Notes under the pieces: generated by a model
Database searches by the model: none
What the model saw: only the letters and a program-made list of their open reading frames with translations
Told to the model about the DNA's origin: nothing
Shown: one piece after another, positions 8,591 to 39,140 of the stretch
Layout: every line of letters begins with the position of its first letter
Numbering within the stretch: the first letter of the stretch is position 1
Translations under genes and position numbers: made by a program
Origin: Sphaerolaimus hirsutus
Taxonomy: Eukaryota > Nematoda > Chromadorea > Monhysterida > Sphaerolaimidae
NCBI GenBank assembly: GCA_964036195.1
Contig: OZ038460.1
Coordinates: 9,489,504 to 9,553,503 of the forward strand
Length of the DNA: 64,000 bases
Reading direction: 5' to 3'

Positions 8591-8604
8591 TGTTACAAAC
8601 AGTC

Positions 8605-8895: not shown

Positions 8896-8899
8896 GGCG

Positions 8900-11580: not shown

Positions 11581-11584
11581 GCTA

Positions 11585-17400: not shown

Positions 17401-20400
17401 CATTTGCCGCGTTTGCATGACATTTGACATTTTACAGGGGGTAAAAAACTTGTTTGGAGATATTTTTTTGGGTAGTCTACATGAGACAGAATAACCAGTA
17501 CAGTACAGTACATTTTCTGCATCTACATTTATCTGCAGGCTGATACTTTGACCAGTCAAGCTGTCAATTTCGAACCAGTTGCTTTCACGACCCCAGCCCC
17601 AGTCACGATGACAAAGCCCACCCAGAAATTTTACAGCGCTGGCACGGAACAAGCGCCAACTTCACCCATACCTGAAAAGAAAATCTACACAGTGGTCACT
17701 GATTTGCCATTAGAACTCTTGGAGGAGACTGAAAATGGCCTGGTTTGTTTTTAATTTCACTTTTGAGTGTCTATATGAGAGTTGTTAAAAATACGGAACT
17801 TTTTCTAAGTATACGTAAACAAAAAATGAATTCTTTATCTCGTGTGTTTTTTTTCTCAGACTTTACAGAGGTGACCCTTTTATCCATTGACATAATGTAA
17901 ATACAGTTTAACAACTGAACTGTGACTTGTATGCATCATTCTGTGTTATACAGATTATCCCCAGCATTCGGCATCTGGTAGCATGTGAGGATATACATTT
18001 CCAAAGTTATAATTGTCAGAAATATTATATGACTAATCAAATATATCAAAATTATATTTTTGCAAAGACTGATTTTTATGAGTATATTCTTTCATTCAGG
18101 CCAAAGCACAAATGAGTGCTGGTTGCGAGAGTTGTCAGAAAAACGTGACTGAGTGCAATAAAAAGTTGTTATTTGCTAATGAAAATATTTCTTCACTGGT
18201 GTATGCAAGGCAGCATGACCAGACAGGTGTGAAGAAATTGAATATGTATAATATATATTTATATTTCATAGATCCTTGAATAACTCCCCATTCCATCTGG
18301 TAAATTATTCATATATTCTAAGGAAAAAATAACTACACACGGGAGGTTATTCAAGGATTCATTGTAAAAAATAATATTTTATTTTATTCTATCAGCGCTG
18401 AAAAATTGTGTTGCAAATGTGATGAGATTGGAAAAATGTTGCGGCACTTTTGAAAATTTAAAGCAGCAGAATTTGGAATTAGAACAGCAAAATAACGAAC
18501 TCAAAGTGCAAATGTCAGAGTGCAGTGCAATTTACAGTCATTTAAATACGGACAAGCAATTTTTGGAACAGAAACTGGCAAATGCCACCATTTTGACTGC
18601 GAAATTGCAAAATGGTTAGAATTTTTTAGTGATATTTTTCCAATCTCTGAGCATTTTAGTATTCTTGTTATTGCAATTACAGTATCTGACAATTGCCACA
18701 CTACTGTAGCTATTTGTGAGGCACAGTTGGGGAAGTTACTAGAAAATGCCAGTTTTGTGTCCAAGAAAAATGCGAAGCTCCAAAATCATATAGAGAGTCT
18801 GCAAGTGAATCTGGGCAAATCTTCTGAAAGTGCACAGCGTCTGAATCATAGCAACCAGATTTTGGCTGGAAAATTGCAGAATGTAAAGCAGCGTCTTTTG
18901 ACTGTGACAAATTGTGAGAAAATTTTTTGGTTACTTTGTCAACTGTGCCTAGAATGAGTGAATATTATTTTTCAGTGTCTGACATCTGTGAAACCCAGCG
19001 CATGGGTTTAATTTCAAAATATAATGAGTTAAAAATGTCTACCACTGATTATGATGGCAAAATATCAGTCTTGGAAAATGCAAATAAACGGCTCCAAACC
19101 ATTGTCGATGTTTTGGAAAGTGAAAAAGTCACTCTATTGGCTACATCTACTAAGTTATCTAGTGCAAATTCAGAAATGGCTATGAATTTGTCCCAATTTT
19201 ACCCTCAATTCAAAAATTTGCTGGAAAATGTCACTAATATTGAGTTCGAGTTGAATGTGTGCACTAAAAATCTGAGAATGGCTAAAATTGAACTGACTTC
19301 TACTAAAACTAAACTGGGCATAATGCATGATCAAAATTTCAATTTGGCTAACTTGAATTCAGAAATAGAGTTCACATGTGAATTACAATTGCATGAGTGC
19401 ATTGCTAATTTAACACAGTGTGCACAAATCTATCAAAATGAATCTGATGGCAAATTTGAGCAGTCCAGGTTGTGATATAACCCATAGGATAACAATTAGC
19501 CATGTGTATATGTACAGCTACTTTCAAAAAGTACCCAAGTCATTGAGTAACTGTATTTTTTTCAAAATCTAAATATATTTACGCGGTTTACGTGAAAAAA
19601 ATACCGTTACTCAATGAGTTGGGTACTTTTTGAAAGTAGCTCTATATATACACATGGTTAATTGTTATCCTATGGGTTATATCACCACTAACAGGACAAC
19701 CATGTTGCAAATTCTGGTGCAAAATTTGACATTTTCAAATGAAATATTGGAGAAAAAATTGACTGGTGTCACAAACAGAATGCATTGCCTACTAGAGCTA
19801 AAAAATTATTATGTGAATGTGTCACAATATTGGGAGGCAATGTATCAGGAAAACCACAGTGTTTCCAAGGTAATTACTGTCCCAATATTGCTCAATTTTT
19901 GCTCAATTTTTGCATAATTTTTTGCCAATTTTAGCTCAATTTTTTATTAATTTTAGCTCAATTTTTTGCTAATTTTGCTGAATTTTTTTTTGCTATTTTT
20001 TGGAAGCTTATTATATTTTATTGCTGTTTACTGGTCTTTCTTGCTGTTATTAACACTTGTTTGCACACACTGTTCAAAAATATTAAAAAAATACAACTTT
20101 ACAGGTGGAGTGTCATCAATACAATGTGGGTCAAAGCATCAAATCCATTGAAATTTTGGAAATTGCAGGTGAATATTTTTATTCTTGGACCCCACCAAAA
20201 AATATGGCTAAATTACATAACTCAAAAAACCTTGTTCACAGAATTTGCCTGTGAAATCATTGGTGGACTGTGGCTACTTGGCACACTTGTTTTTGGCCCC
20301 ATGTGTGGTTTGGCCAGTAAACACATTTCACATACAAGTTTCAATGGCAGTGTGCTCCATTCTGTGGTGTCTTTTGGGGAGAAAAGTGTCAGCCAAATGA

Positions 20401-20905
20401 TTCAGAATACTTTGGTAAGTGATAGGACTTTACTGAGTTTTGACTAAATGCATTCAAACGTAAATTATCTTTAATAATGTTTATTAAGTCACATTTGATA
20501 CTCAGGTGAGTTTGCTATGCAGTATTGGACATTTTCTCTGCAAATGTTGCCAGAAAAAGCAACCAACTGTGGTTGAATTGGTTGATTTGGAAGCTGGCCA
20601 AATAAACCCTGGTGTCATTCACAGATCCTGTAAAGTGTAAAGTAAAGTGTGAAATGTTGTGGTAAAATGTCACATAATTTGAATATGAGTTGCATGAAAA
20701 TTTACAAGTTGACTGACCTTTCAAATAATGTGATATTCTACCATAATATTTCACAGGTTACTTTACACTTTACAGGGTTTGGGAATGCTCAGGTGGTCTA
20801 CTTATGGCTGACATTTCCCAGATAACACCAGTGAGGAATAATAATGTCTTTGGCCCCCTGAGCTCTACTCCCAGTCTGTTATATTTTTTTATGATAAATA
20901 TTTGA
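14468..20905 (+). CDS. Long coiled-coil membrane glycoprotein, spike-like, Polinton cargo (12 exons)
   Basis: Exons 14468-14568, 15304-15493, 17539-17742, 18100-18226, 18396-18614, 18683-18913, 18976-19468, 19695-19869, 20105-20168, 20242-20414, 20506-20611 and 20793-20905 total 2,196 nt (731 aa), all GT-AG and phase-consistent. It has an N-terminal signal-like stretch (MFTFFLMISICAHQSG), a short Cys-containing domain, then a Thr/Pro-rich linker (FTTPAPVTMTKPTQ). About 400 residues of heptad-type coiled coil follow, with regularly spaced cysteines and about ten N-glycosylation sequons (for example NVT, NAT, NLS, NES, NRT). Near the C-terminus are a hydrophobic segment (GGLWLLGTLVFGPMCG) and a second one ending in CKCCQKK, which looks like a palmitoylated membrane-proximal tail. 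The layout resembles rod-like viral attachment or fusion proteins, but I recognise no family. Intron 2 is a 2-kb palindromic array; introns 7 and 11 are MITEs. Confidence 0.7.
14697..15088. repeat. Palindromic element with short tandem repeats (in intron 1)
   Basis: The ends AAAAATTCTGAATATTTGG and CCAAATATTCAGAATTTTT are inverse. The left arm carries about six tandem copies of a CAGTACACACATATGCT unit (14,759-14,850). The right arm carries the inverse TACTGAGCATATGTGT copies (14,985-15,030). It is contained in intron 14,569-15,303 of the coiled-coil gene. Confidence 0.8.
15610..17400. repeat. Nested palindromic satellite array (in intron 2)
   Basis: A unit of roughly 0.6 kb is repeated about three times with local inversions. 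Hallmark words are CAACTAGTAAATGTTCGGTT, CTGTCAACTCGTCATGGAT and its inverse, GACAGGAAAAAGCAAGCGCC and its inverse, and GAGTTGCCTGAAAATTTAC. Each unit is a hairpin, so the block is a palindrome of palindromes. It occupies nearly all of intron 15,494-17,538 of the coiled-coil gene and does not disturb either splice site. Confidence 0.85.
19469..19694 (+). repeat. Intron formed by a palindromic MITE
   Basis: Intron 7 of the coiled-coil gene starts GTTGTGATATAACCC and ends in CCACTAACAG. Between them the arms GTGATATAACCCATAGGATA and TATCCTATGGGTTATATCAC (19,472-19,684) pair as a hairpin with only a short loop. The flanking reading frame is open on both sides and rejoins in phase, so the insertion behaves as a clean intron. 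Confidence 0.85.
20612..20792 (+). repeat. Introner-like MITE, family A: last intron of the coiled-coil gene
   Basis: The intron starts GTGTCATTCACAGATCCTGT and ends GGGTTTGGGAATGCTCAG. Internally GTAAAGTGTAAAGTAAAGTG is inverse to the 3-prime arm TTACTTTACACTTTAC. The whole intron is the element. Splicing is required to keep the frame open to the stop at 20,903-20,905. Related copies are at 5,215, 29,691, 30,696, 39,141, 40,274, 42,860, 44,347 and 50,579. Confidence 0.85.
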
Positions 20906-21740
20906 AAAAGCTCAAAAATTTCAAAAAAAGTGATTTATATAAAAAATTGCAGTGGTTCACTTCGCGCGCCAGGAAGCTATGGTGACATTTCACGCGTCCG
21001 AGGAATGATTTTGTTCGAGGGAATTCCTGAGGGATGTTATTTTTTGTATTTTTTATGATTTTCGATGTTTGGAGAGATGATAAAAATACTGAAGTTTTGA
21101 AAAGTATACTAAATTACTTTTTAGCCACAAAATACTTTTTTTCGAAAAAATATGTCGTATTTCCTCGAATTTATTTTTTATTCACTGAAATTTTTGCAAA
21201 AAAAATCCCAATATTCCAAAAAATATGTTGTATTTATAAATCCGTTAAATACTCCCAAATTTAATGAATTGAGAATGAGTCTCATTTTGCATAAATTACA
21301 GCCAATGATTTTGTATTGGGATTTTTTTTGCAAAAATTTCAGTGAATCAAAAATAAATTCGAGGAAATACAACATATTTTTGGAAAAAAAGTATTTTGTG
21401 GCTAAAAAGTAATTTAGTATACTTTTCAAAACTTCAGTATTTTTATTATCTCTGCTACTCACCAGGAAATATGCCAGATACATTTTTGATGATCATGAGT
21501 ATTTATGAGTATTTCGATATATATTCAAAATATTTCTTCTGAGTATTTATGAGTTGATGTTCAATTGTGGCATAATAAATATGTTATGATACATTTATGA
21601 GAAAAAAAGTTGTATGGATGAAAATGATTGACCAAAAGTCTTTACTTTTACTCAAAAATACGTAAAAAAACGTGGGACTAAAAAGTATTTACTTTTACTC
21701 GAGTATATATTTTTTTCAATTTGGTGGACTTTTTTCTGGA
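20906..21740. repeat. Intergenic palindrome and TACTCG-rich repeat
   Basis: Positions 21,075-21,455 form a long hairpin: AAATACTGAAGTTTTGAAAAGTATAC at the left is inverse to the right arm near 21,418-21,445, and GAATTTATTTTTTATTCACTG is inverse to the region at 21,340. Positions 21,640-21,715 carry the TTTACTTTTACTCGAGTA word shared with other dispersed repeats. I see no gene. Confidence 0.65.
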
Positions 21741-21874
21741 AAAACCCCAGAGTTATTACTAATAATGTTTACCCAGAGTAGTGATAAAATCATTGGCACC
21801 CTAGGTAGCACCAAACTTTGAACTGTAAACATGAAATTGTCACAAGGCAGCACTACAGTGTTCTGCAAACATTG

Positions 21875-22085
21875 CTTAATTAGAAATGTAAATATGATAA
21901 TGGTAGAAAATGTCACTGTGTGGTACAGATTTGAAAAAAGCATTGATAACTTAAACAAATGTCACTTCCCCACTGGTACAGTTACATTGCTTTATTAGAA
22001 ATGTAAATATGATTATGGTAGAGATTTGAAAAAAGCATTGATAACTTAAACAAATGTCATTTCCCCACTGGTACAGTTCCTTGTC
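21875..22085. repeat. Tandem duplication of about 100 bp upstream of the 218-aa gene
   Basis: Two head-to-tail copies (about 21,888-21,975 and 21,997-22,078) share TTAGAAATGTAAATATGAT, GGTAGA, AGATTTGAAAAAAGCATTG and CCCCACTGGTACAGTT. They sit directly upstream of a TATA-like box and may be duplicated promoter-proximal sequence. Confidence 0.8.
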
Positions 22086-22103
22086 CTTATCATAACTTTC
22101 AAG

Positions 22104-22246
22104 ATATATAAGTGCATGGTTTCTTTAGACTCCTCACTTCACTGCTCTGCTCACTTCACTGCCCTGCTCTCTTCATTGCTCTGCTCACTTGACCGCCCCT
22201 GGTCACTTCACTGCTCTGCTCACATCACTATTCTAGAAGTGTCAGA
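22104..22246 (+). promoter_or_regulatory. TATA-like box and CT-rich leader of the 218-aa gene
   Basis: ATATATAAG at about 22,105-22,113 has the form of a TATA box. It is followed by about five copies of a (T)CACTTCACTGCTCTGC-type repeat (22,127-22,230), a pyrimidine-rich leader ending just before ATG 22,247. Confidence 0.5.
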
Positions 22247-23757
22247 ATGGACAAAACTCCAAAGTTTCAAAAGAAAGTTAAACGCCCACTGTTCCCGCCG
22301 CATGAGGAGGACGAAACTGACCATTCCGATCAACCTGATGAAGAGGATGAGGTCGAACCACCACGCCTGCCCAAGAAACCTGTGAAACCTCTACGGGCCG
22401 TTCCGAAAGTCAAGCGGATGAATGCTGTTCAGTATGAAACTTCACCAGGTAGAGCTTTGAAAGGTTGCTTTTAGATACTGTTTGGGGTGAATGATGAACC
22501 TTTGCCAAAAAAACAGAACTTAAAATGTTCCTTGACCAATGGTCACTTTTTTCACCTATTGGTCACTTGTCCAGTGGTCAGTCTGTCTAATGATTACTCC
22601 CTATAAATAGCTAGAAATAGGATCCAGTATCTTTACAAAGCAGTATAAAGTGCAAGTGACCAGTGTAAAGTGCAAATGCAAGTGTTCACATAAATTTGAA
22701 GTTTTTTACATTCTCTGTGGGTTTTGAACTAGATCACTATAGGACTTAATTGTAACATAATCATTATTTGTCTATACATATTCTAAGTAGAATACTTTAA
22801 AATGTCTGTTGCTGATTGTAGTATGAGTGACCAATGGTCAAAGATAATAAATAAATAATTAATGCCCTTCCATCTAATCTTTGCAGAATCGGTGGATCAA
22901 GAGCTCGTTAAGCAGGAGACACAGTATGCAGCGGACTTTCAACAAAAGCAAGAACAGAAAAAACGGCAAGCTGTCGACAATGTCATCGGTTCAAAGATCC
23001 ATTGGATTTCGAAAAGTTGCCGTTCAGAAGGATTCAGGTATGTGAGGGTTATATTAAGCTTATGGGTAGGTAATTTCATTTCTCCTGTGTGTGTAGCTAT
23101 GAGTTTGCAAATTTAAAGAAATTTGCAAGACAATCTTCCTCAATAAATTTTTTATGGAACTTATGTATCCATAAAAAAGCACTGTAATTTTCACATTACA
23201 GAATTCTCTTCAAGGACTCAATGCCGTTTTTGCAGGTGACATTCCCAAACTCTGTAAACATGAACTGTTGAATATCATGTTTTTTTAAAAATTCAAGATT
23301 GTGAAATTTACAAAGTTCGATCCGAGGTATCTCGAATTTTTAGTCATTTGATATTTGATCTTTTCGTATTAACAGAGATGGGAATGTCTGTTTAGATCGG
23401 TTCATTTGAATTCTGTCGAATTTTTTCGATATATAAGCCTGTGAGGAATCAGGGTTGGCAAAATGGACCAAACATGCAATTCAAGTCGGTAGCAGAAATT
23501 CCACTTGGAGACAGCAAAATTTTTGACATTTTTGCTGGTAAATTTCGAGGTGTTTTTGAAGCTGCTATAGCTGAAGCAGAGGTAGGTTGACTTGTGACTT
23601 ACACTATCACAAAAAATTGTTTTTGTGAATGTAAGGCACTTGCCTCCTACAGGAAAAGTTTGCCAATCACACGGCGAGGCTCGTAGAACAACAGGAGAAA
23701 TATCAACAATCCCGTTTTGGAGGGAATTATGGTGGAAAGTTCAACAATTATGCTTAA
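22247..23757 (+). CDS. 218-aa charged protein next to the DNA polymerase, Polinton cargo (6 exons)
   Basis: Exons 22247-22448, 22887-23037, 23202-23235, 23298-23326, 23446-23581 and 23653-23757 total 657 nt (218 aa), with in-phase GT-AG introns. The first 65 residues are disordered and of mixed charge (Lys/Pro-rich with an acidic HEEDETDHSDQPDEEDE run). A folded core of about 130 residues follows, starting after a coiled stretch (QQKQEQKKRQAVD). The short tail is Gly/Asn-rich (FGGNYGGKFNNYA). Disordered arm, compact core and Gly-rich tail would suit a nucleic-acid-binding protein, for instance a single-strand-binding replication partner for the adjacent polymerase. I recognise no family signature, so that role is inference. 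Its gene is bracketed by repeated TGACC-N3-GGTCA palindromes. Confidence 0.7.
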
Positions 23758-24132
23758 ACACCTCACTCACATTAAAAGTGACCACTGGTCATTAATGTCT
23801 AAGATTCTCTTTATAAGTATTTATGGTAGTATATATGTATTTATGGGTAAACATTATGTGTTTTTTTAATAGGGGTATGCTTTATTTGTGATTTTCAAGT
23901 AACTATACATGATTACTATGTACTGAGCATTAGAGAATAAGTGAATAAGGGAGAAATCAAGGTGTAATTCTCAAGGGTTGATTCAATTGCAAAAAAATTT
24001 TCATGTGTAGTGACCGTCGGTCACTAGTGAATAAGGTAGCATTCATGGGTCCGTTACTTAATATATTCAAGTTGCATTCAAGGGGGGTCATTTATCAATT
24101 GTTCAGTAGTAAATAAAGGTGACCGTCGGTCA
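22533..24132. promoter_or_regulatory. Cluster of TGACC-NNN-GGTCA palindromes
   Basis: Five perfect 13-nt palindromes lie at 22,533-22,545, 22,828-22,840, 23,779-23,791, 24,011-24,023 and 24,120-24,132. The spacers are AAT, AAT, ACT, GTC and GTC. One imperfect copy is at 22,568-22,580. Two perfect copies are in intron 1 of the 218-aa gene and three lie between it and the polymerase gene. Spacing and dyad symmetry fit binding sites for a dimeric protein (operator, enhancer or replication site). Confidence 0.6.
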
Positions 24133-24235
24133 CTAGTGAATACGGCTGCATTCAAGAATCCATTAGTCAATATGATTAAGCGGCATTTTCATTCAAGGGG
24201 TTCATTTACCGATTGTTCAGTAGTAAATAAAGCTA
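24009..24235. repeat. Tandem duplication of about 110 bp before the polymerase gene
   Basis: Two direct copies (from 24,009 and from 24,119) both start GTGACCGTCGGTCACTAGTG and both end in a TTGTTCAGTAGTAAATAAAG segment. They show internal divergence of some 15-20 percent by eye. Each copy carries one of the perfect palindromes. Confidence 0.85.
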
Positions 24236-24473
24236 ATAAGTACTTTTCTGGAAGTGAGGATAATATTTTGTTGTTATACTTATCGCTTAGTAGTTGCAGC
24301 TGTTTATAATAATATATTTGGAATGATAAAATGATTTATAAATGAAATGATCCATTTTTTATGTCAAGTTGAATGAGTTGAGACTCTATCTCATTGCTAT
24401 TTGAGATATATCTTGAAATTATTAATAAATTTTTCAATCATTATTTAAAATGACACTTTCAGAATAAGGTAAT

Positions 24474-27400
24474 ATGGTGAATTATTCTTGCGAAATTTGC
24501 GGTGCATCCTTTCTTACAACATACATGATTGGACGTCATATGGAACAGTCACATCAATTGAAGAAAACCAATATCAGTGTTGATAAATCCGATACCAATA
24601 ATTGGATTTATAAAAGTGTTAGTGTGTTGATTTTTTATTGTAAATGTGCAAAAATTTTGTAAAAATTTTGCAAATTTTTTTTGCAGTGTGCAAAAAAATC
24701 ATATTCAAATGTTCCATATCTTGACTTCAACATTGTGTCACCCCTTCAGAAACTGAATGACACTATGAATGGGAATAAAGGAAAAGCCGATGTTGTAGCA
24801 ATGATAGATGAGGTAGTACAACGACAAGTGAATAGTGAAAATTTGAATGGAGAAATTTTAGAAAAACTCACTGAACTAAGCTTAAGGATGGAGAGAGTCA
24901 TTCATCAAGTATGTGAATTATTTTAAGGTTCATATAAGAGCTTTGTTATATATTGGATCATTTTTTAGGTTGATCAACTTTATTCTGCTAGCCCAAATAT
25001 GCCTGGACCATCTTCTGAAAATCAAACTGGACATCCGCCTGTTGAAAAACGCTCACGCGCACCAAAACGACCCAAGAAAGCACCTGAACCAGTACAGGAG
25101 TTGGATAGTGATGAAGAACGTATGTTTCCACAATTATCTTCTGAATTAGCCGATAAGTATGGTTTTGGTCACCTTCCACCTCCCATTTTTGCTAAACAGA
25201 ATGCCGTCATTAATTCTGACCCAGAATTAAGCTTTTTTCAACAAATGTATCAATATCAATATAAGCCAAGAATTGTAATATATCAAAAAGGGCGTAAAAT
25301 TGAATATCGTTTTCCTATTTTTGGTGTGTACAATGACAATCTCAGGCAATTGCTGATTCAACAGCTAAAGGCGTTTCTTGGTGCATACCCGAAAATATTC
25401 CGGCTCAAATGTCAAATTGGCTTTTTATTAGTCTCGCGTGAAAATCCAGAAATAAATACTCGTTTTTTCCGTCAATCATTCAATACTCAATGTTATGATG
25501 GTATAGTAAATGGCAGTTTATATCTCAAATTTAATAAAAGCATTTCTGAATTATGTAGCGGTAATTGTGAATCATACTGTACCTTTATTAATGATATGTT
25601 TTCATCCGGTGCTGCTTATAAATCACTTCCATTTTCTATTTCCTATATCGGAATTGTTATCTAAATGTTTATCAATACATGTTGATATACTTTTTTTCAG
25701 AATCAACATGCTTTGGTGGAACACGTTCTTATATGAGACGAATTAAAAAAATGAATATAAATACAAAATTTTTGGAATGCACTATTATTCTGGCACTTGC
25801 TGAGTTCACAAAGCAGAATATAAATAAAAATGAATTGTCAGAATTGGTGTCAGAAATTGAATCAGCTACTGCACATGAATCATTGTATAAAGCTACTATG
25901 TTATTTAATACACCCATAAAAGTCTATCATTCATGTTTGAATGAAAAAATCTTTTATGAATCAAATATGTTGCAATCAAAATGGCTAAACCAGACACAAG
26001 CACTATTGTTATATCAGAAAAACGGTCAAATTCGGCTCATTGTAAATTTGCATTTATTCCGGAAAACATTCCAATGTACTAATTGTAGCTTGATTATTTC
26101 TAACCGGCATTCATATTGGAGACATAAAAAATATAATTGTCTAGGAACCGCAATGCGTCAAAAACGGTTTGTCATTCTGAATCATATTTATATGAAATGA
26201 TTTTCTGATCTAATTTAAGTAGACCTTTTGAAAAACATCTCTCAATCTAATTTGTACAGATTGAAAGCAAATCAAAAGGTGATTTCAATGGATGACAATG
26301 GGCTCCCTAGGCTAGTAATTTTGGAATACGAATCTGGTCGCTGGAATGAACAGCCAACCCTAATTGATCGACTAGAGGCACTGTTAGATAAAAAACCACT
26401 TTACCATATAGAAAATGAACACATTGCTATAAATGATTTGCCAGCTGAATTGATTGGCTTGTTAAACTTAAACACCTTTCTAACATATGACTTAGAAACA
26501 ACAGCTGTCAAATCAAATCTTCCAGTTGACACCACAAACTATTCGTTTATTGGTCGCCATGTACCGTTAATTATTACTGTTACTCGCGCAGACACAAATG
26601 AAACTAGAATATGGGAAGCTTCTAGTTTTTCCAATACCCAAATTGTAGAGTCATTTGTGTTATACTGTTTAGAAGTAGCACTGGAATTTACACAGAAAAA
26701 GCATGCATATTTAGCTGAATTTTTCCATTTCATTACAAGTAAGAAGCAATTTACACAGAATGGTTTTGAAATGCAAAAATTGGTGATTTTAGAAAAGAAA
26801 TTATCTCAGCACATAAACACTACACCAATTTTTGGATACAATAGTGCTAGATTTGACCTACCTATATTGTTAAATTCAAAGCTTATTGAATATTTGTATT
26901 TGCACGATTTAGATAGTCATGGTAAGCAGAAAATGCCTACTGCTATTAAAAAGGGTGAAAAGTATATAGTCTTGAAGTCCCCTCATCTAAATTTTTTAGA
27001 CGCAATCGTGTTTGAGGGGGCTAGCCCATCATTAAGTGACTCTTTACAACAAACTTTTCCCAATGATACTTCATTGCATAAAAATTTTTTACCATATCAA
27101 GTTTTAAAAAAAGGTATTGCCTGTTTTTCTTACGGAATTCCGGAATATGAAAGTTTTTTTGATGAAATGGCTTATACGAACACGTTAGATATTGAATACA
27201 ATGATTATATGAAAGCGCGACATAAATACAAAATGTCAAAAAATGAAGCGCTAGAATACTTGAACTTGAAAAAAATTCCTCAAGTTGGCAGAGAAAAGCA
27301 TGCTAAAATAGTAGAAGCATGGAAAGAAAAAGGATTTACTTGCTTTAGAGACATATTAATTGATTACTGCATTAGTGATGTTAAGCCGCTGATTCGTTTT

Positions 27401-28215
27401 TTACAAACCCGCATACTTTCTTATTATATTATTGCACAACAGTATTTACATGGTTTTGTAACAATTTCTAGTTTTGCATTTCATATTACTTATAATAGTA
27501 TGCAAGAGAATCCAGCTCAATTATTTTATATTCCCGGTGAGCATTTGACAAACTTGATTCGTGCTAATTTGTTAGGTGGTATGACATTTATTTGTACCAA
27601 ATTTGTTGAATTAGGTGTAAGCAAAATTCGTCCATACGACTATGAAAACCCGAATGTAGCAAAGGCAATTTTGGGTTATGATGCTAATAGTCAGGTGCTT
27701 TTCTAAAGTTCTTTCTTATTATACAATTTTTTAAAAAACCTCTGTTAACTTATCTATTATTACTTTTTAGTATCCATCGGTGATGTGTCAGAAACAATTC
27801 ACTGGTCCGCCAATATATCGGTGTTCAGAGGATAACTTTAAAGCTGATTTCATTCAGAGGCATAAAATTTCACCACTTCAATATGTCGAATATGTGAATC
27901 GCACAGAAAATTGTGAATACATGCATTCACTATGTAATAAGGGAGAAGTTTCAGTATTTTTAGAGAGTATACAGGAAGTATATAGACTAGATGGGTTTGT
28001 TCATTAGCAAAATATACCTATTGAAAAATATGATACATTTTGGGAAAAATATTCATATTTTTCTTTACAGATATGGCGTCCGCCAGCAAAATGGTCGAAA
28101 TGTTCCTGTTGCTGTTGAATTTTTTGAATGTAATGGTTCCCATGGTCCTGTAAACAAAATGGAAATTGATCCATTATATTTAAATCTTCAAAAGAAAAAA
28201 AACTACCCTCTGTAG
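24474..28215 (+). CDS. polB: Protein-primed family B DNA polymerase, 3-prime truncated (polB)
   Basis: Probable exons are 24474-24617, 24687-24908, 24969-25560 (or 25608), 25701-26138 (tentative), about 26220-27694, 27771-27994 and 28071-28215. The start is a C2H2 finger (CEICGASFLTTYMIGRHMEQSH), then a coiled and Pro-rich linker and a second Cys/His cluster (FQCTNCSLI). The 3-5 exonuclease follows, with Exo I YDLET, Exo II GYNSARFD and Exo III YCISD. Motif A (GYDANSQ) is split by an intron from YPSVM. The post-motif-A insertion domain is recognisable (VAVEFFECNGSHG), then the frame runs about 20 residues into a stop. Motifs B and C (the second catalytic Asp) are missing. Known Polinton polymerases synthesise element DNA using a protein primer; this copy should lack polymerase activity. 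Whether 24,474-25,660 is the N-terminus of the same protein or a separate upstream gene is not certain. Confidence 0.88.
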
Positions 28216-28354
28216 AGACAGGTCCAGTCAATTTCTGATGTCGAATATTACGTTCATTTTGTTCCAATTTATGAATTTTAGTTTTCAATTTTTTGTATTC
28301 ATTAGCAGGTACCATAACAAATGGGTCAATTTCATAATTTGATTTTCCAGTCAT
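28150..28354 (-). CDS. Short coiled-coil ORF downstream of the ATPase, 3-prime end probably lost
   Basis: The ATG at 28,354 lies 3 nt after the ATPase stop. The first 60 or so residues look genuinely coding, with a heptad stretch (KKLKTKIHKLEQNERN). The open frame continues to 28,004, but from about 28,160 downward it is antisense to conserved polymerase coding sequence, so the original C-terminus has probably been replaced by the rearrangement that also cut the polymerase. I do not recognise the family. Position suggests a minor virion or assembly protein. Confidence 0.5.
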
Positions 28355-28357
28355 ATT

Positions 28358-29185
28358 TTATGAATTTTCACTCAACGCAAAGCAAATAGGCGGATAATCA
28401 GGTGTGTAAATCAAGCCGCTACGTAGTTTATATTTTATATTTGTGCTAGTGGTATTTCTCTCTATTAATAGATAATTATATCCGTATTCTGTGAAACAAA
28501 GCTGCGCAATTTTATGAATGAGGCCACCTTTTCCAGCAAAATATCGTTTTTGAATTTCAGTTAAAACATTAGTGCCTACAGTAGATCTTGAAAGAAAAAT
28601 GTAATTTGCATTATCCAAGAGTGGCGTGAGAGACATGTGTACATTACCACTACCAGAAATACTTTGTAATGTCAAAAAACATGATAAACTTTTGTGATGA
28701 CAAATCCGCTCAAAATAATTACGTATTTCTGCATAAATAGCCTTAGATGTACGTATAATCGATCCGAAATCTTCAAATACCAGTAATACATCTTCATGCT
28801 GATCACGAGTAGAAAACCATGTTAAATCTGTTACATCCCATGTGGGTTCAAAAACTTTGAAACTTTCAAAGAAATTCACAACATTTTCACATGCGCTTTT
28901 ATACTGCTTAATTGTAACATCATCTAAAGCAAACAAAATCACACCTAACAAAATACGACTTGGACGTACTTCTCTCCAATTTTGGATCAGCTGAATAATA
29001 GTTGTCGTTTTATAACTGGATGATCCACCAATGTAAATAGCAGTGAAGTAATCACGTCCATTATTGGATAATGTCATCTGGTCTCTCTGACGAGTTTTAT
29101 TTGCCTGATTTTCTTCATCTTTTTGAGCTTGCTCATCGAAATAAGCTTTCATTTTTGTTACAAATTGAGCTACTTTCGAATTCAT
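28358..29185 (-). CDS. Genome-packaging ATPase, FtsK/HerA (A32-like) type
   Basis: Single exon, 275 aa, the normal size for the Polinton packaging ATPase. The P-loop is IGGSSSYKTTT near residue 55, in the usual place after a short N-terminal arm. The Walker B strand is DVLLVFEDFG with the catalytic acidic pair. Downstream SCFLTLQSISG fits the sensor/arginine-finger region of this family. In related viruses this enzyme pumps DNA into the preformed capsid. Its ATG overlaps the protease stop by 4 nt. I see no frameshift and all motifs are present, so it is probably functional. Confidence 0.9.
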   Translation of the reverse strand: MNSKVAQFVTKMKAYFDEQAQKDEENQANKTRQRDQMTLSNNGRDYFTAIYIGGSSSYKTTTIIQLIQNWREVRPSRILLGVILFALDDVTIKQYKSACENVVNFFESFKVFEPTWDVTDLTWFSTRDQHEDVLLVFEDFGSIIRTSKAIYAEIRNYFERICHHKSLSCFLTLQSISGSGNVHMSLTPLLDNANYIFLSRSTVGTNVLTEIQKRYFAGKGGLIHKIAQLCFTEYGYNYLLIERNTTSTNIKYKLRSGLIYTPDYPPICFALSENS

Positions 29186-29619
29186 AGAAATTGTTTAGCA
29201 AACCATTCTGATACTAATTTATCATTATCTATACCTGTGAATTTTTGAATTATTGTATTCCATAACTTACCTTCTAATAAATGAAAAATAATATAAAGAC
29301 AATACTTTGCACATAAGTGTGATAAAGATGGTTGAATTGCGCGTTTTAAAAATAATGGTTTGCCATACATATATAAAAACTCAAAAAACTTAGTATATTG
29401 CTCTGGGTCTACCCCCTTTGGATCAATATAGCACACCATTTTTTGCGAATAATTTATATAGACAGATGTAAAATGGTTCTGATGAAGTATAAAACAAAAA
29501 TTTGGCTCATTTAAATTAAGCACTAAAGACTTACGTATATCAGTGAATGAAAAAATACCCCGATAAAACTTAGCATATCTAGAATTAATCACATAAGCAT
29601 GCAACTCCTTTGCCTGCAT
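29182..29619 (-). CDS. Adenain-like (Ulp1-fold) cysteine maturation protease
   Basis: Single exon, 145 aa, slightly short for the family (adenoviral proteases are about 200 aa). The catalytic layout is visible in order: His in QNHFTSVYI, Asp in CYIDPKG, and the nucleophile region SHLCAKYCLYI with a preceding Gln (IQPS) suited to the oxyanion hole. In Polintons and adenoviruses this enzyme cleaves capsid and core precursors. Start ATG 29,619 is chosen because the capsid gene stop lies only 3 nt upstream (29,623-29,625), so there is no room for a longer N-terminus. It overlaps the ATPase start by 4 nt (ATGA). Confidence 0.9.
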   Translation of the reverse strand: MQAKELHAYVINSRYAKFYRGIFSFTDIRKSLVLNLNEPNFCFILHQNHFTSVYINYSQKMVCYIDPKGVDPEQYTKFFEFLYMYGKPLFLKRAIQPSLSHLCAKYCLYIIFHLLEGKLWNTIIQKFTGIDNDKLVSEWFAKQFL

Positions 29620-29622
29620 GAG

Positions 29623-31976
29623 TTAAGCACTTCCAAGTGAGACAAGATTTGAAATCTGTATAGATCGATGCACGTCTACTGTTATTATTTCTACGGGACA
29701 GTCCCAAACCCTGTAAAATGTAAAGTAAATTGTCAAGTGTAAACATAAATGAAGTAAAGTGAGAAAAAATACAAAACATAATTTTTTAATACTGAAATTT
29801 GTGTTGCGAAAACAACAGTGTAGTTTACATGAGAGCTCAGAGTAACCTTTCGATTCGAGTTTACATTCAATACTTTGCTTTACAGTTTACAGACTTTGGG
29901 ACTGTCACCTGAAATAACGGCGACTGCAAACATATGATAGGTTTGTGTAGTTGGTGATGCCAATTCCGCGCGAAAACGTGTGATGCCTGCCAAAATTCAA
30001 AAATAAGCGTGACTAAGTTATGGCGCGAAAATATGGGATAGCTGCCAAAATTCAAAAAGCATCAAAAACATGTGTTGCAATTTCATACACATTAAACAAA
30101 CAAACCAGTGTCTGACGGTACATTAGATGCACTATTGGTTAAACCATGTTGCTGAAAGATGATAGGTACAACGAAATATCCACCCGCAAAGTCTTGAAAC
30201 TTAATTCCAGACTGACATCCAGGAATTCCATTTGCACCTAAAATTTCATAGAAAAAAATAAGTTTGAAGAAAGTTGTAGCAAAAGCAATAAAAAATCACC
30301 TTGAAATTCAAGAAACTTGTTATACATATATTTCAGTACAATGTTTTGTTTCCCACCGCCTTCCGGAAGCATTTTTGTTATATATGGATTTGTTGGGAAA
30401 CGATCCACAGATTCAAACGATGCCTGACAGGACACAATTCCCAAATTACTGTACAAATGTGGGTTCTTAGCATAGCTCCCTGTAAAAAAAAACTGTTATG
30501 AAAAAAATAATTTATGTATTAATAAAAAACGTATAAAAAACAACCTCTATCTCTATCTGCTTCAATAAAAAATATTGCTATCGCATCAGGTCTAGTTCCA
30601 TTAATAATTTGGCTGTCAATGTGACTGATGCCACTATTTACTGACATGGGTCCAAAGATCTTAAATCCTTTGTATGAATAATTGATTACGTTAGTCTGGT
30701 AGCAGTCCCGACCCCCATAAACTATAAAGTAAAGCAACAAATGCAAAACTGAAGTAACAATTGTCATTAAAAAAACTTACCATGTTAATAAGCATTTTTT
30801 GTTTTCAAATAAGATGTTGATTTCCATTTCTCTTTACATTTGTCGCTTTAGCTAACATATTATACAGGGATTGGGGCTCCTACCTGACTAAAGCGTCTAA
30901 AAATTTTGTCACACAGCTCCGGTTGGAGAGTATATCTTTCAATCAATAAGTCTGTGTCCAAAAATTCAATTTTTGGATCCAAATCTGCAACAGCAGTATT
31001 AAGTACCTTTGCCCATGGCGCCCAACGTATTTCAACTGTTACTTTCATTCCAGGAATTAAAAGCTTTCTGCGAATTAATGGAGTGGACATTGGTCAGTTG
31101 TTCTAAAAAATGGAGTGGAAATTGCTCACACCATCCAAAAAACAAGAAAAGTGAACCTCTGATACGCAAGCGGATAAAAAATCCGTGAAATTGTTTCAAT
31201 TTCCATTGAACCATTTGCATTAAAACAGCATTTCCTACGGTAAGCAAATCCTGGATTATCATCATCCATTGCCTGGAAAAAAGTGTCAGCTTAACAATCC
31301 TTACATTTCTTGAAAAGTATAGGAATCAACATACGTCAAAATTTCCCTCGTCTTTTGCATAAAACGCCACTTCTCGTTGGTAATTCTCTATAACATTTAA
31401 ATAGTTCTAGGTCAATTTTTTTCAAGTCGTACATAACCAATATAAGCTTACCAAGTGTATCTAAGGTACTCCCAAAAGTAACCAAAAAATAGTTAAGTTG
31501 ACTTTGATTAGCTCCATATCCTGAAATCACTTTATCACCAACTCTGACAATAAGGTCCGAAATCATTGAATGAGGAAATGCATTAGCCAATGCTACCTTT
31601 GTATCTAAATAAGAGAAAAAAAGTTTGATATGATTACACCAAGAATTTATCATGTTAACATACCGTTTGGTATTGTCTCTCCATTTTTGTTTACTATTTT
31701 GAAACGACAATGAAGAAAAAAATGGGGCGACGTGAAGAGAGTTGTAGATTTCGGTATTTCAAATTGCACAAAGTGTTCAGTGTGAACAGATGGTTTGATT
31801 ATCAAGTCAAGTTTATTAGTATAAATAAACTGGGTTGGAAGATCACCATACAAGTCAGACCTGAAAAAAAGAATTCGCAATGTACAAGCAAGCATAAAAA
31901 ACAAAAAAAATAATCACAAGTCGTACCGTGCATCAAGCAAATTAGAGGACTGTTTTGGTACAATCCTTGTGTCCAT
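29623..31976 (-). CDS. Major capsid protein, double jelly-roll (hexon-like), 11 exons
   Basis: Exons (minus) 31927-31976, 31664-31860, 31452-31604, 31335-31387, 31157-31272, 30884-31067, 30545-30695, 30300-30479, 30106-30237, 29909-29986 and 29623-29690 total 1,362 nt (453 aa), all in phase. The assignment rests on order and pattern typical of Polinton/NCLDV capsid proteins. An N-terminal strand block (HFVQFEIPKSTTLF) is followed by DLIVRVGDKVISGYG. Next come an EVAFYAKDEGNFD region, PGMKVTVEIRW, the second jelly roll beginning at AIAIFFIEADRDR, SYAKNPHLYSNLGI, and a C-terminal beta segment. The ATG is 2 nt after the upstream stop. Two introns (29,691-29,908 and 30,696-30,883) are introner-like MITEs. 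Ten introns in a capsid gene is unusual. No disabling mutation is visible. Confidence 0.9.
29691..29908 (-). repeat. Introner-like MITE, family A: last intron of the capsid gene
   Basis: On the minus strand it starts GTGACAGTCCCAAAGTCTGT and ends GGTTTGGGACTGTCCCGTAG. The subterminal arms (GTAAACTGTAAAGCAAAG and the inverse) pair. The 218-bp element coincides with the intron needed to join the two C-terminal capsid exons in phase. Confidence 0.85.
30696..30883 (-). repeat. Introner-like MITE, family A: central intron of the capsid gene
   Basis: On the minus strand it starts GTAGGAGCCCCAATCCCTGT and ends GGGGGTCGGGACTGCTACCAG (21 bases quoted as two parts: GGGGGTCGGGAC and TGCTACCAG). It is 188 bp and lies exactly between exons 30884-31067 and 30545-30695, which join in phase 0. 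The ends are more diverged than in other copies, suggesting an older insertion. Confidence 0.8.
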
Positions 31977-31978
31977 CT

Positions 31979-32507
31979 TCACTTTTTTACTTTTTTCTTT
32001 TTATCACTAGGATCAGTTTCAGACGCACTTGAAAAGCTATCAGTTACAGTCTTTGATGAATGTGCTGCACTTTCGTTTGATGCAATTGGCTTATATATCA
32101 CAGACTCAGTAGGCGGAGCCTTACGTTTTCTTATTGGTCGTGGTTTACTGTTTAAATATGAATCACCGCGAAATGTAACAACATCACGTGAAATTTTTTC
32201 TGGTGGACGCCGCTGACCACCCATCATGCCGCGAAGGGTATTTGCTGCCGTTATATTTTGTCCATAAACCTCAAAAAATGGTATCATTCAAAAAGTGTTC
32301 ATAATACACAGAAACACAACACAACTACATTACCTGATCTGCTTCGAAATTGCGTGCATGTATAGAACTGATCTCCATTTTACTGTGTGAATACCATGGT
32401 GCATAGTGAATGCCTAAACGTTCATCGGGTGGGCTCAATAGTCCAATAATTCCAGAACGACAGCTTTCTAAGTTTATAACAGCGGGGTTCACGACGTAAT
32501 CTTCCAT
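31979..32507 (-). CDS. 154-aa basic virion-type protein between penton and hexon genes (2 exons)
   Basis: Exons 32334-32507 and 31979-32269 (465 nt) with an in-phase GT-AG intron. The N-terminal half is neutral. After GMMGGQRRPPEKISR the chain becomes basic (PRPIRKRKAPP), followed by a Ser-rich stretch and a C-terminal KKKKVKK. No transmembrane segment is present. The start codon shares one base with the minor-capsid stop (TAATG). Position and composition recall adenovirus-type internal proteins that link capsid and DNA (pVI/core proteins) and are protease substrates, but I cannot demonstrate homology. Confidence 0.7.
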
Positions 32508-33457
32508 TAGATCTCAATAAACTCTAATTCAATATATCCAACAGGATGATAGAGGTGAAACTTTGTATCAACTGGAAATGGTTTGTTATACTCATTAACA
32601 AAATCAAAAGTAATACAATAAAATGCTGTAGATTTTGTCTCAGAATAACGAATAGAAGACGCATTTGTTACATAATCAAAACTCGGAAAATTAGAAATTT
32701 TACGTAAAGAAATTAAATCAACATTAGCCACCTTTCTAGACTGATCAGTTACTTCACCCTCTATATAATCAGAATAAATAGGTACTAGAGCATATGGTAA
32801 AATTGCTAACAAATTTTCATACTTATTACCAACTCTAACGTTAGCACAAATATTAGAATGAACTTTCAAAAAATGATTCCCATAACTCAAATCACTCTCT
32901 CCTATTCCATAAATTTCATTATGCCCAACTTTCCAATTCAAATAATCAAATGTAACTTCTTTAAAAATACCTAATTTTTTTCCAAGTACTGGGGAAAATT
33001 CAATGCCAAAGCTCAAATCTTTTTGTGTAGCAGCACGCTGTAGATCTGGGGCTCTCATATAAAAATGCATTACCTTATTCTTCCAAGTTACCTCAAAAAC
33101 ACAATGTTGCTTAGGAAGTTCAACATATGGACGTTGCCAAAAAAAAGTTTGAAACATTTTACTTTCAAACACTTTATTTATAGACATAGCGAAATCAACA
33201 GCTGAAAAAATTTTATGAGTATTAATTGGAAAATGTGCAGTATCAATCAACACACCATTTTTATACAAATTCCCAATAAAATAACCATCAAAACGAGATA
33301 AAAGAGAAGTAAAAGGTGCAAAGAAAAAATGTTTCATACCTACTTTATACTGCTTTGTTGGTTCAAGCGTAAACGGCGGGGAAAAATCTATTTTTGCAGA
33401 TGAAAGGTCTTCATTCCATTCACAATCTGATAAATCAATAGTAAGTGATTCAGGCAT
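32507..33457 (-). CDS. Minor capsid protein, penton-like
   Basis: Single exon, 316 aa, the size expected for the Polinton penton (single jelly-roll vertex protein). It begins MPESLTIDLSDCEWN and is dominated by alternating beta-strand-like segments (for example KMEIS-free, aromatic-rich TFFWQRPYVELP and CVFEVTWKNKVMHFYM). There is no signal or membrane segment. The ATG overlaps the integrase stop by 8 nt, and the gene lies two genes upstream of the major capsid protein, the usual neighbourhood. Assignment is by size, strand-rich composition and synteny more than by a diagnostic motif. It looks intact. Confidence 0.8.
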   Translation of the reverse strand: MPESLTIDLSDCEWNEDLSSAKIDFSPPFTLEPTKQYKVGMKHFFFAPFTSLLSRFDGYFIGNLYKNGVLIDTAHFPINTHKIFSAVDFAMSINKVFESKMFQTFFWQRPYVELPKQHCVFEVTWKNKVMHFYMRAPDLQRAATQKDLSFGIEFSPVLGKKLGIFKEVTFDYLNWKVGHNEIYGIGESDLSYGNHFLKVHSNICANVRVGNKYENLLAILPYALVPIYSDYIEGEVTDQSRKVANVDLISLRKISNFPSFDYVTNASSIRYSETKSTAFYCITFDFVNEYNKPFPVDTKFHLYHPVGYIELEFIEI

Positions 33458-34578
33458 TCTCGCTAGTAGCTAAGACCAACCTATTTTCAGGAAATGTACC
33501 AATTAATCGTAATTGCGTATGCAGTGATTTTAATACATAACTATGTAATGGTTCAGTAGAAATCACACTTTCAACGACACAGACTTCTGGGTTGTATCGA
33601 GGTTGCCCAATCTTGCGGAAAGGATTTGCAGCTAAATTTTCCCGAATAAACACTCTATCTCCAACTTTAAACTTTGCAGGATAATAACTTTTTGGTAGAT
33701 TAACTAAATCTCTCTCTGTCTTTGCCCGCGCGAAAATCTCTTCAACAGCAAGATAGTTGCCCTTGTTAACCTATAAAAAAACACAGTAATGAAATAGAAA
33801 TTTTTTATTGTACACAACTTTTTGATTAAAAAATACTTACTTGCGATGGTGAAATGTTGCCTAATGGGGTGCGTTTCTCATTATTGTATGATGACACCAC
33901 CGAATAAATTGCGTCATTGAGTAACAGGTCTGGACGTGTTTGCAGTAGCATTGAAACACGCTGACGAATTATCCTTATCATCTTCTCAGCCTAAAAAGCA
34001 CGGAGAGATTTTTTAAAGATAAGAAACGTGACTTATGAGATGTGCAAACAACTTACCTGTACTGTTTTATGCATTGCATAAACACTGGTGTACTTATGTG
34101 AATATCCCATTTCTGTCACTCCAGTGTGAAAATCCTTCAAAAATTCACTGCCGTTGTCCGTTAAAACATCATAAACAGGGGTTTTATAAAATTTAATCAC
34201 ATGTTTAAACGCATTAAGAACATTACTAGATGATAATATGTTTATTGGGGCTACAGTAGTAAATCCAGTTAAACATTCTACACAAATCAACATAAATTTA
34301 TTAGTACTTTTTTTAGCAAAACCGGTTAAGTACATAATATCACATGCCACCATTCCAACAAACGGAATAATATGTCGACTTGCAATTCCACGCTTAACAG
34401 GGTGTTCTGGAATCACTTTGTTCATGAGGTAGCCTTTCTGAGTGTCAAGCCATTTCTGAACCTCTGGTAATGTTACATGATATCCTTCTGCATTTGCTTC
34501 TTTCCATAGTTTTTTAGCACTACCAAATGCACCAGCAACACCAGGTGTTGTCCAAATATTTTTAAGCACTTCATCCAT
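33450..34578 (-). CDS. Polinton integrase, retroviral-type DD35E (3 exons)
   Basis: Exons 34057-34578, 33841-33990 and 33450-33770 total 993 nt (330 aa), all phase 0. The N-terminal helical domain (FGSAKKLWKEANAEG, EVQKWLDTQ) matches the pre-catalytic region of Polinton integrases. Catalytic residues are D80 (MVACDIMYL), D141 (LTDNGSEF) and E176 (AEKMIR, after the first splice), giving exactly 35 residues between the last two. The C-terminal SH3-like barrel begins near KFKVGDRVFIRE, and I see no chromodomain. The enzyme inserts the element and generates the 6-bp duplication seen here. It lies about 110 bp inside the right terminal repeat and heads the minus-strand gene cluster. It appears intact. 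Confidence 0.93.
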
Positions 34579-34688
34579 TTTATTGAATTTTCCTTGTACT
34601 TGAGATAGAGCAAAACATTTAAGTGAATCATTAAACTAACAAATATACAAAGTATATAAAGTATATGAAATAACATGGAGCGATAGAT
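34579..34688 (-). promoter_or_regulatory. Probable promoter/leader region of the virion gene cluster
   Basis: These 110 bp lie between the right terminal repeat and the integrase start, in the only non-coding space upstream of the seven-gene minus-strand cluster. On the minus strand they contain TATACTTTATATACTTTGTATA-like AT-rich sequence (34,644-34,667) that could serve as a TATA element. Confidence 0.4.
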
Positions 34689-34955
34689 AGTAAGTATACA
34701 TACATGGATAATATTTCCAACTCTATAGCACGTTTTTCTGTTTATCAAAAATTTTGGCGTAAAATCGCATTTTTATGTAAATATTTTTCTGTATGCACGA
34801 AGCCAGCCGGAGGTACGACGGCTGAAAAAGCGAAGTGCATACAGAAAAATATTTACATAAAAATGCGATTTTACGCCAAAATTTTTGATAAACAGAAAAA
34901 CGTGCTATAGAGTTGGAAATATTATCCATGTATGTATACTTACTCTTACTACTAC
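34689..34955 (-). repeat. Right terminal inverted repeat, itself a hairpin
   Basis: This is the inverse of 3,446-3,711. The outer end read inward is GTAGTAGTAAGAGTAAGTAT; the left end has one GT fewer at the AGT repeat. Arms pair around the same loop, present here in the opposite orientation. Only a few differences separate the two termini (for example GAGTTGG versus GAGTCGG near the inner arm). Confidence 0.9.
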
Positions 34956-37025: not shown

Positions 37026-39140
37026 TTGACACAGTTGGGTGACAATGTGCCTACACACACTAGTTTTCAACTAAAATGCATTAGAGCTTACGGGAAGAGT
37101 TGTTTTTAATAGCAGTTTATAAAAAAGTACATTTTTTACCCATCTGGACACCCCCTGAAAACATACTGAAAAATGAAAATATTGCACGGCAAGAAAAAGC
37201 TGGATAAACACAGGATATTTGATAAAATTATTCAAACAGCGAAAATATCTGCCAATGATGGCTACTTATTGTCCTGGTGGAAAATATGTACGGGATAAAT
37301 TAATATGTACCTATTTTTAGTTTGCGAGTGCAATAGACTATGCATGACAGCGAGAGTCAGCCCGAGGCATGACATTCCAAGAATGCGGTGTGTATTGGAA
37401 AACCAACAAAACAAATGGATATTTATTTTATTGCAATTTTATTGCATTGTCACTTGGCTTTTGCTCGAGTACGCAAGTATTTACATGAACATATTTATTA
37501 TTTATATTCCAGTGCCGTAATACTGAGCAAGCGCGGTTATTTATGCCTTACGTTATTGCGTAGTTACCTATGGCAGCGTGCCAACGATAACTCATGGACA
37601 TGGTTGGTTTTAGTAAAATTCTTTTTACTAAAATTGTATTTTATTTTTATTAAAATTGTATTTTATTTTTATTTTATTCATGTTTCAGTTTATTTTATTT
37701 TATTTTATTCTGAAATGTCATTAATAAAATAAAATGAAACCATTTTACAAAAATTTTACAAATATTTTACAAAATTTTTACAAAAAGTCGGAAATCTTGG
37801 ATGCAAGGACATAAAACAATGTGCATGCTGGAAGCATGCAGATGAATACAAAAAAAGTTTATGTAAACTTTTGACACGAGTTGTGAGGTAGGCATTTTGT
37901 ATTTTGACCCTCTGGAGGTCCTGGATATATGCATCTAATTGCTCCTCCCAAGGGAAGATACCTACAATTTGGTTGTTGTTTTTTGGGTGGGGGGAGGGTT
38001 TGCGTGGTTCTTTTTTTTGGCTTTTTCACGGTATGGAACGAAGAAAATCACATAAATCAGTGATCTTTAAGGTGAAAATATTTTTAAAAATGTGAAAATT
38101 TGCAATTTTGAGCAACGATATGTTTCAATCACAACAATGAAATATACAACAAGGCACTAGTTCTGCAAATTGGCAGCTCGGAACTTAAGCAACATGATAG
38201 AAAACTTTCTATAGAATTAACCAGACACTTGAGTTTTTGTAAAATTTTACAAAAATTGTAGGAAAATTCGAATTATTGTACAATTTTACTAAAATTTTAC
38301 AAAAATTCGAATTTTAGTAAAATTGTATTTTTATTTTATTAATTTTCCATTTTATTTTATTTTATTCTCTAATTTTCCATTTTATTTTTATTTTATTTTT
38401 ATTTTTTTTCTGAGATTTTGCCAACCCTGCTCATGGACACACAGACCAGAGTATTTATTTATGTTATTTCACATGTAAAAGCATCACATCGGTGGACGAC
38501 ATGATACCACTATTCAAACTTTTGTATCAAAAGGAAGGACAGAAACAACCATAATATGATACCTCGCGAGCGAGTTCCAGTTTAATAAAGAAGAAGCAGC
38601 CATTTAAATGTTCATACAAGTAATTTAGAAAAAGAAGAAATGAGGGAAACGTACAATACATCACAAAAATTACTTATTTATTGGTGTGAATTTATGATTG
38701 ATTGCTTTTTGAAAATAATTCAACTCGTAGTGTAATGTGGATTTGATGACTGCCGGTCTGAATCACAGTTGGAAGAATATTTACCATCTGAATCACGATG
38801 TGAATCATGCGAAAAACATTTGAAAAAAGAGAAAAATGCGGACTGTAATAAGGTCTTTTGATGACATACATATATGTAATCACACGATACGTATTGTTCG
38901 TGTATGTATTCAAATGTGCATTTATTTATGTGTTTTCTTTATATTATTGTGCAGGTTGAAAAGGAATACGCTCAGAAAATGATCAAGCGAACAATGCTGA
39001 TGCTGGCCAATAGCGTATAGAGGAATACGGGAAAGCAACAAGAAAGTATAGGGATGGGATGGCGCCATGCAACAATTTTTCTCTGGGGCACATTTTTAAT
39101 CATCTAACGAATATATTGAAAATAGCGCTGCGGTGCTTCA
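37026..39140. other. Non-coding host DNA, AT-rich blocks
   Basis: No exon is recognised. Positions 37,600-37,790 and 38,220-38,420 share inverted runs of TTTTACTAAAATTGTATTTTA and ACAAAAATTTTACAAA, two copies of an AT-rich hairpin repeat. The remaining sequence shows no clear pattern. Confidence 0.4.

Follow-up and report, generated by a model that had tools for sequence, protein, structure and literature searches.

Can a transposable element build introns in the genes of a virus-like element? The question is raised by a 64,000-nucleotide stretch of the genome of the nematode Sphaerolaimus hirsutus (assembly GCA_964036195.1, contig OZ038460.1, positions 9,489,504 to 9,553,503 of the forward strand; hereafter the window, with coordinates counted from its first base), in which a Polinton/Maverick-type element carries foldback copies of a miniature inverted-repeat transposable element (MITE) family, here family A, at intron positions. 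An initial annotation of the window had read three of these copies as direct evidence of a transposon creating introns in a virus-like element. A transposon source now appears well founded, being backed by empty and filled sites in sister Polintons, a 3-bp target duplication and copies in host coding exons. We argue from observed termini, CWG duplications, filled and empty sites, coding continuity and copies in host domains, and consider it very probable that family A is a foldback MITE family that spread in the host and inserted repeatedly into Polinton genes, forming exact introns in CAG sites.

Family-A copies at intron positions in Polinton genes

Three family-A copies in the Polinton start with GT and end with AG at exactly the positions first proposed for them. 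Copy 1 (20612..20792, + strand) lies near the 3' end of a coiled-coil gene in phase 1 (..GQINP|GGLLMADIS..), and a capsid-like gene is interrupted by copy 2 near its 3' end (29691..29908, − strand, phase 1; ..FAVAVIS|EIITVDVHR..SLGSA*) and by copy 3 (30696..30883, − strand, phase 0; ..FRRFSQ|TNVINYSYKG..). A different Polinton gene holds a fourth introner close to its 3' end (5213..5401, − strand; ..CIDTS|DAPESQ..*), placed in phase 1 by reading the sequence. The initial annotation had also held that copies 1–3 must be removed for the reading frames to stay open, and this is borne out: each contains an in-frame stop and its excision joins open frames, of 41 + 37 codons at copy 1, 70 + 58 at copy 3 and just 29 + 22 at copy 2. 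Despite its short joined frame we take copy 2 to lie in coding sequence, since in sister Polintons the gene passes through the site uninterrupted as ..CVALTSEIITIDLHRSVHMSNLVSLGSA*, where the window has ..FAVAVIS|EIITVDVHRSIQISNLVSLGSA*. The foldback z-scores of these insertions as RNA (40 shuffles) are −13.5 for copy 1, −6.4 for copy 2, −5.3 for copy 3 and −15.5 for 5213–5401. The presence in the window of GT/AG-ended foldback copies at intron positions is confirmed.

Two further annotated copies exist, keep GT and AG ends and lie outside the Polinton; their starts, given as 44,347 and 50,579, were each one base off. One (44346..44513, − strand) is a near-perfect foldback with CGG on its 5' side and CAG on its 3' side (z −29); the other (50578..50770, − strand; z −17) is flanked by CAG on both sides and as RNA reaches −118.6 kcal/mol against a shuffle mean of −45.0. 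Decayed copies with approximate ends lie at 39133..39299 (− strand) and at 42846..43037 (no strand assigned), the latter having no GT end.

Sister Polintons with and without the insertions

The exon 5' of copy 3 in the capsid-like gene (30884..31093, − strand) was used as a query against the assembly (348 Mb, 762 contigs) and found 39 homologous places, of which 30 were inspected. The copy-3 site is filled in five of these (L009–L013) and empty in the other 25, which read straight through it, L018 and L020 being two codons shorter; in the empty locus L019, protein identity is 70% on one side of the site and 84% on the other. Three of the 25 empty loci (L015–L017) have another foldback insert, flanked by CAG at either end, some 12 codons upstream of the site. 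The arms of that insert in the capsid-like gene differ (TCTCACACACCCTATA). The copy-2 site, followed in 12 places, is filled in five, empty in four (L044, L045, L046, L047) and uninformative in three, and the copy-1 site is filled in six of eight places and contiguous in two (L118, L119). For the insertion at 5213, eight of 13 places were examined: six are filled and two are without the insert (L099, L100), the tails of these two aligning only loosely. In these comparisons the codons on either side of each of the four Polinton insertions directly adjoin one another in sister Polintons of the same genome. The initial annotation had named introns that are ancient and conserved at the same positions in distant Polintons as grounds for abandoning its reading; these were sought and not found, and empty copies occur at all four sites.

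Insertions of independent origin are present in the same capsid-like gene of other Polintons. In the C13 Polinton (L046 1310–1487 and L015 2661–2838, both reverse strand) a family-A copy flanked by CTG at either end lies 13 bp from the copy-2 site. Because this copy in the capsid-like gene has CTG on both sides, the class of copies that end in TG, described below, is present in a Polinton too.

Sequence around copy 3 has not changed evenly. Among the five filled loci the exon on the 5' side of copy 3 shows 98.6–100% protein identity, and two filled sisters, L012 and L013, match the window at 99% in exon DNA, as against 79–80% identity for the intron alignment (about 93% in ungapped columns, plus 27–28 gap columns). 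From these two sisters we conclude that the exon was held and the insert was not.

Termini and target duplication

Relatives of the window copies recur throughout the genome: three genome searches returned 215, 2,391 and 1,735 first-look candidates, figures that are not copy counts, and 40 candidates were scored from each. The 40 scored for termini represent 39 distinct centres and 38 distinct copies (L063 duplicates L057). Their 5' end reads GTG (G in 37, T in 38 and G in 35 of the 38), the constancy of GT not being independent of the sampling, which picked copies by similarity and oriented them by that end; their 3' end, in reverse complement, reads GGG (35/38 at each base). The foldback is longer than 61 bp in all copies measured. 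With the 3' end left free to shift by up to two bases, the flanks are CAG/CAG in 13 copies, CTG/CTG in 10, CTG/CAG in six, CAG/CTG in one and other in eight, so that identical CAG or CTG stands on both sides in 23/38 and CAG is mixed with CTG in 7/38. Family A makes a 3-bp CWG duplication. Across the three samples, mismatched flanks take the form of CTG on the 5' side and CAG on the 3' side in nine copies (L057, L065, L067, L085, L087, L094, L106, L123, L124) and the reverse in three (L055, L127, L134), a bias that is a trend only (about 0.07, one-sided; 0.11 if the counts are taken as eight against three).

The duplication recalls the NuwaI group of the PHIS superfamily, for which Han et al. 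(2015; PMC4482050) describe a 5'-CWG-3' target-site duplication (TSD) and a terminal inverted repeat (TIR) that usually starts with GGG; within the available text of that paper the group is recorded only from animals. NuwaI elements have TIRs of 12–61 bp and, in the autonomous partner, a DDE transposase and a Myb/SANT protein. Family A shares with NuwaI the CWG duplication; it has GGG at one terminus and GTG at the other, is non-autonomous and sits as introns. By this analogy, family A is most likely mobilised by a transposase of NuwaI type (PHIS/Harbinger-like). A donor splice site is formed because the second base of one terminus is T, giving GTG and not GGG.

Insertions in host coding domains

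Flanking sequences were joined for the 39 copies of the termini sample, for nine of 15 picked places and for 17 of 20 fetched copies, the three exclusions being a duplicate, a copy with GGG at both ends and one without a clear 3' end. From the open joined frames a set was chosen by eye for comparison with Pfam, comprising 40 sense peptides (36 copies) and 10 antisense peptides, and a domain was counted as crossing the junction at E 1e-4 or better; insertions in host genes were judged from domain continuity alone. Of the 36 copies, 15 have a Pfam domain that runs across the junction, examples being Ribosomal_L40e (E 1.5e-31) and CNOT1 (E 1.8e-18), and all 15 lie GT-first on the coding strand. 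None of the 10 antisense peptides has any Pfam domain. The nominal significance of this orientation is 6e-5, a value that ignores that antisense tests were fewer.

Within the 15, L094 and L127 fall under Pfam's own cut-off, and the crossing finger of L074 is inferred from three fingers in the peptide. Weak crossing matches in two AG-ended copies (L081, CHRD, E 0.0036; L090, MFS, E 0.0025) were left uncounted, and in L062 (cadherin) and L092 (7tm) the domains adjoin the junction and do not cross it. COP1 (L053) and LAMP (L052) had been guessed by eye and were dropped when Pfam returned no match. The host genes include receptor and laminin domains, L40e and cadherin, gene content that fits an animal; among the domain-crossing copies, L077 lies in ubiquitin-L40, L061 in CNOT1, L079 in a galactosyltransferase, L089 in a laminin-N gene and L083 in a receptor. 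The Polinton's own subfamily was found in a host zinc-finger gene (L111). Taken with the Polinton insertions, these copies indicate that family A is a real introner family common to host and Polinton.

Copies that end in TG

Seven of the 15 domain-crossing copies end in AG (L061, L068, L070, L077, L086, L094, L111) and eight in TG (L074, L075, L079, L083, L084, L089, L127, L136). The TG copies occupy CTG targets, and six of them have CTG at either end; the frames that flank TG-type coding copies are still open. Divergence from the sample majority is 6.5% for TG-like copies (n=8), 6.4% for AG copies (n=9) and 6.0% for the remaining 22, where the TG-like group consists of six early TG copies together with L069 and L092 and where subfamily structure may inflate the figures. 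Elsewhere in the capsid-like gene, sister Polintons have introns of which the seven complete ones viewed all end in AG, which we therefore regard as the normal 3' end there.

The TG copies are either spliced as GT-TG introns, or spliced at cryptic AGs nearby, or handled in some other way. Splicing of the usual GT-AG kind at cryptic sites close by, with codons added or removed, would account for this class alone, and we regard it as a fair possibility that falls short of being probable. In seven of the eight TG copies the interval from −100 to +45 bases around the boundary contains an open in-frame AG that the element's own GT could use, and other donors add alternatives (best four per copy; stops unchecked); L079, however, has no such AG in this interval. 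The smallest cost of a cryptic AG is three codons in L136, four in L084, five in L075, L083 and L089, 12 in L074 and 13 in L127, and the changes mostly remove codons from a conserved domain. If the flanks are joined directly, by contrast, the match to the domain continues over the junction. More tentatively, and with some doubt, we propose that family A is a CWG-targeting introner with two classes set by the strand of the target, yielding GT-AG introns in CAG and functional GT-TG introns in CTG with the help of the hairpin and of relaxed demands at the 3' splice site, the same family serving host genes and Polinton capsid-like genes. On the GT-TG proposal, T-to-A changes may later convert TG to AG.

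The Polinton and neighbouring repeats

Polintons, or Mavericks, are elements of 15–40 kb with long TIRs that encode PolB and an rve integrase together with capsid, ATPase and protease genes. The element in the window (3446..34953, no strand assigned) spans 31.5 kb between TIR arms of 276 nt (3446–3721 and 34678–34953) that are 98% complementary, and its frames give Pfam matches to DNA_pol_B_2 (E 4.7e-5) and rve (E 5.4e-5), both under the curated cut-offs. From the TIRs and these sub-cut-off polymerase and integrase matches we take it to be a Polinton. A search with its PolB frame gave no relative, none of 7,037 candidates reaching E 0.001. Open frames tried against Pfam, PHROG and PDB as capsid, ATPase and protease gave nothing convincing; the labels are our assumption from gene order and motifs, and the plain name 'capsid', which these databases did not back, was dropped for 'capsid-like'. 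The coiled-coil gene region (18918..20905, + strand) consists of open frames with introns at 19469–19694 and 20612–20792 and is named by appearance only. In the Polinton at L025, unrelated sequence interrupts the capsid-like gene directly after the SYKG intron. Direct and inverted repeats are packed in a dense array in the Polinton interior at 15588–17338.

The other intron in the coiled-coil gene (19469..19694, + strand; GTTGTGATATAACCC..ACTAACAG) is an unrelated foldback, flanked by CAG on both sides, with arms 97% alike and exons that continue in frame. Because it belongs to a separate family, more than one foldback intron family entered the Polinton. No clean empty copy of this site was found, and we do not claim a gain there, since the sister loci L120 and L121 also show an interval at this position.

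Beyond the Polinton, two inverted-repeat pairs link 45507–45835 and 55074–55403 (arms of 174 and 162 nt, 95 and 93% complementary, 9.2–9.5 kb apart) and are perhaps another mobile element. Mitochondrial COX1 has 14 TGA codons, and AGR fits Ser by eye, which points to the invertebrate mitochondrial code; the mitochondrial stretch L095 (19% GC) has ND1- and ND2-like frames on one strand and COX1 with an ATP6-like frame on the other, all but COX1 assigned by eye.

Discussion

The mechanism that we propose for these introns invokes a transposase, most likely of NuwaI type, which would insert the MITE at a CWG site and generate the 3-bp duplication. After a sense insertion in an exon CAG, the exon would retain its CAG, the element would supply the 5' GT and the duplicated CAG would supply the 3' AG, giving a product CAG|GT....CAG| from which removal of GT..AG would restore the exon exactly, while the hairpin would draw the two intron ends together. 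Splicing of the copies from RNA is what we infer from the sequence, and a role for the hairpin and selection on these introns are likewise presumed. The family would have spread in the host genome and hit Polinton genes independently, on several occasions, which would have given one Polinton lineage introns, in its capsid-like gene and its coiled-coil gene, that are absent in sisters. As in introners, similarity among family-A copies runs up to both presumed splice boundaries, ending at GT and CAG in Polinton and host genes, and the empty sites show that the four Polinton copies were inserted into exons.

It is improbable, in our judgement, that the insertions just break genes and that the open flanks are recent damage or pseudogenes. 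The CTG copies, which have no canonical acceptor at the boundary, would fit such breakage, and the insertion in L046 may be a plain disruption; yet at protein level the exon preceding copy 3 is almost invariant in the five filled loci, the intron has changed more, and TG copies are as diverged as AG copies (with the reservation about subfamily structure given above) and still have open frames. We give even less weight to a precise, ciliate-like DNA excision in the soma that removes the element and one CWG copy. It would restore the exon exactly for CAG and CTG targets alike, but it needs no orientation, and the GT-first arrangement of every domain-crossing copy, with no domain in the antisense peptides, speaks against it. 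That MITEs settled secondarily in ordinary introns that were already old, and coincide with them for that reason, is hardly credible: the family is common enough for copies to land in introns, but the ends of element and exon agree base for base, and at these sites sister Polintons are intron-free, which contradicts this account at all four.

Our preferred reading, repeated insertion of a host MITE family into Polinton genes, has several observations to contend with. At copies 1 and 2 the duplication has partly decayed, the flanks in the window being CTG/CAG and CAG/TAG, with CAG/CAG at copy 3 and at 5213. By blastn, the Polinton copies match the host copy at 50578 over 46–60 terminal bases only, and copies 3 and 5213 do not match it at all. 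A plain GT-AG model also leaves unexplained the TG ends of about half of the domain-crossing copies.

Introners are known from 175 genomes, with two animal groups among them, copepods being named (Gozashti et al. 2022; PMC9860276). That study describes DNA transposons with TIRs and TSDs that insert in exons and whose splice sites are part element and part TSD, and family A is alike in forming similar introns by exon insertion, in its TIRs and TSDs and in the mixed source of its splice sites. Unlike the introners of PMC9860276, family A occupies Polinton and host genes of one genome, and its 3-bp CWG duplication also gives TG ends; the word 'virus' occurs once only in the main text of that paper as available, inside a reference. 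Candidate introners of mirusviruses (PMC12768974) comprise 69 repeated introns, chiefly in genes for the capsid (21) and the terminase (15), and so resemble family A in placing repeated introns in capsid genes of DNA viruses or virus-like elements, although the gene here is only capsid-like. In the accessible text they are defined by similarity within viral genomes, with no host genomes, and to this family A adds host copies, TSDs and empty sites.

The non-canonical introner elements of Amoebophrya (PMC7789003) are hairpin introns with direct repeats of 3–5 nt at the boundaries and ends other than GT-AG. They share with family A the hairpins, short direct repeats and odd ends, but this dinoflagellate has variable ends, whereas in the family-A copies seen GT is nearly constant and the 3' end follows the target. 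The tunicate Fritillaria borealis (PMC13326754), with a duplicated U2AF and introns mostly outside the GT/AG rule, is like the host of family A an animal with intron ends other than GT/AG (here candidate GT-TG ends); in S. hirsutus non-AG ends were seen in family A only, ordinary introns having been viewed in one Polinton gene. A literature search, with most subscription papers outside its scope, found no work that combines an introner with a Polinton and one in which introners and Harbinger occur together. Relative to the initial annotation, the fourth Polinton introner at 5213, the unrelated foldback at 19469, the CWG duplication, the copies in host genes and the TG-ended copies are new.

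To have the element, its duplication, the empty site and host copies together in one animal genome is rare and bears on the origin of spliceosomal introns, and inserts at precise intron positions catch the birth of an intron almost in the act. A Polinton that gains introns from a host transposon would depend on transcription in the nucleus, and it could move introners from one genome to another. If the GT-TG ends are true, they would bear on how strictly the spliceosome demands AG and on the birth of non-canonical introns that later turn canonical, and the gain of an intron need not await a canonical acceptor.

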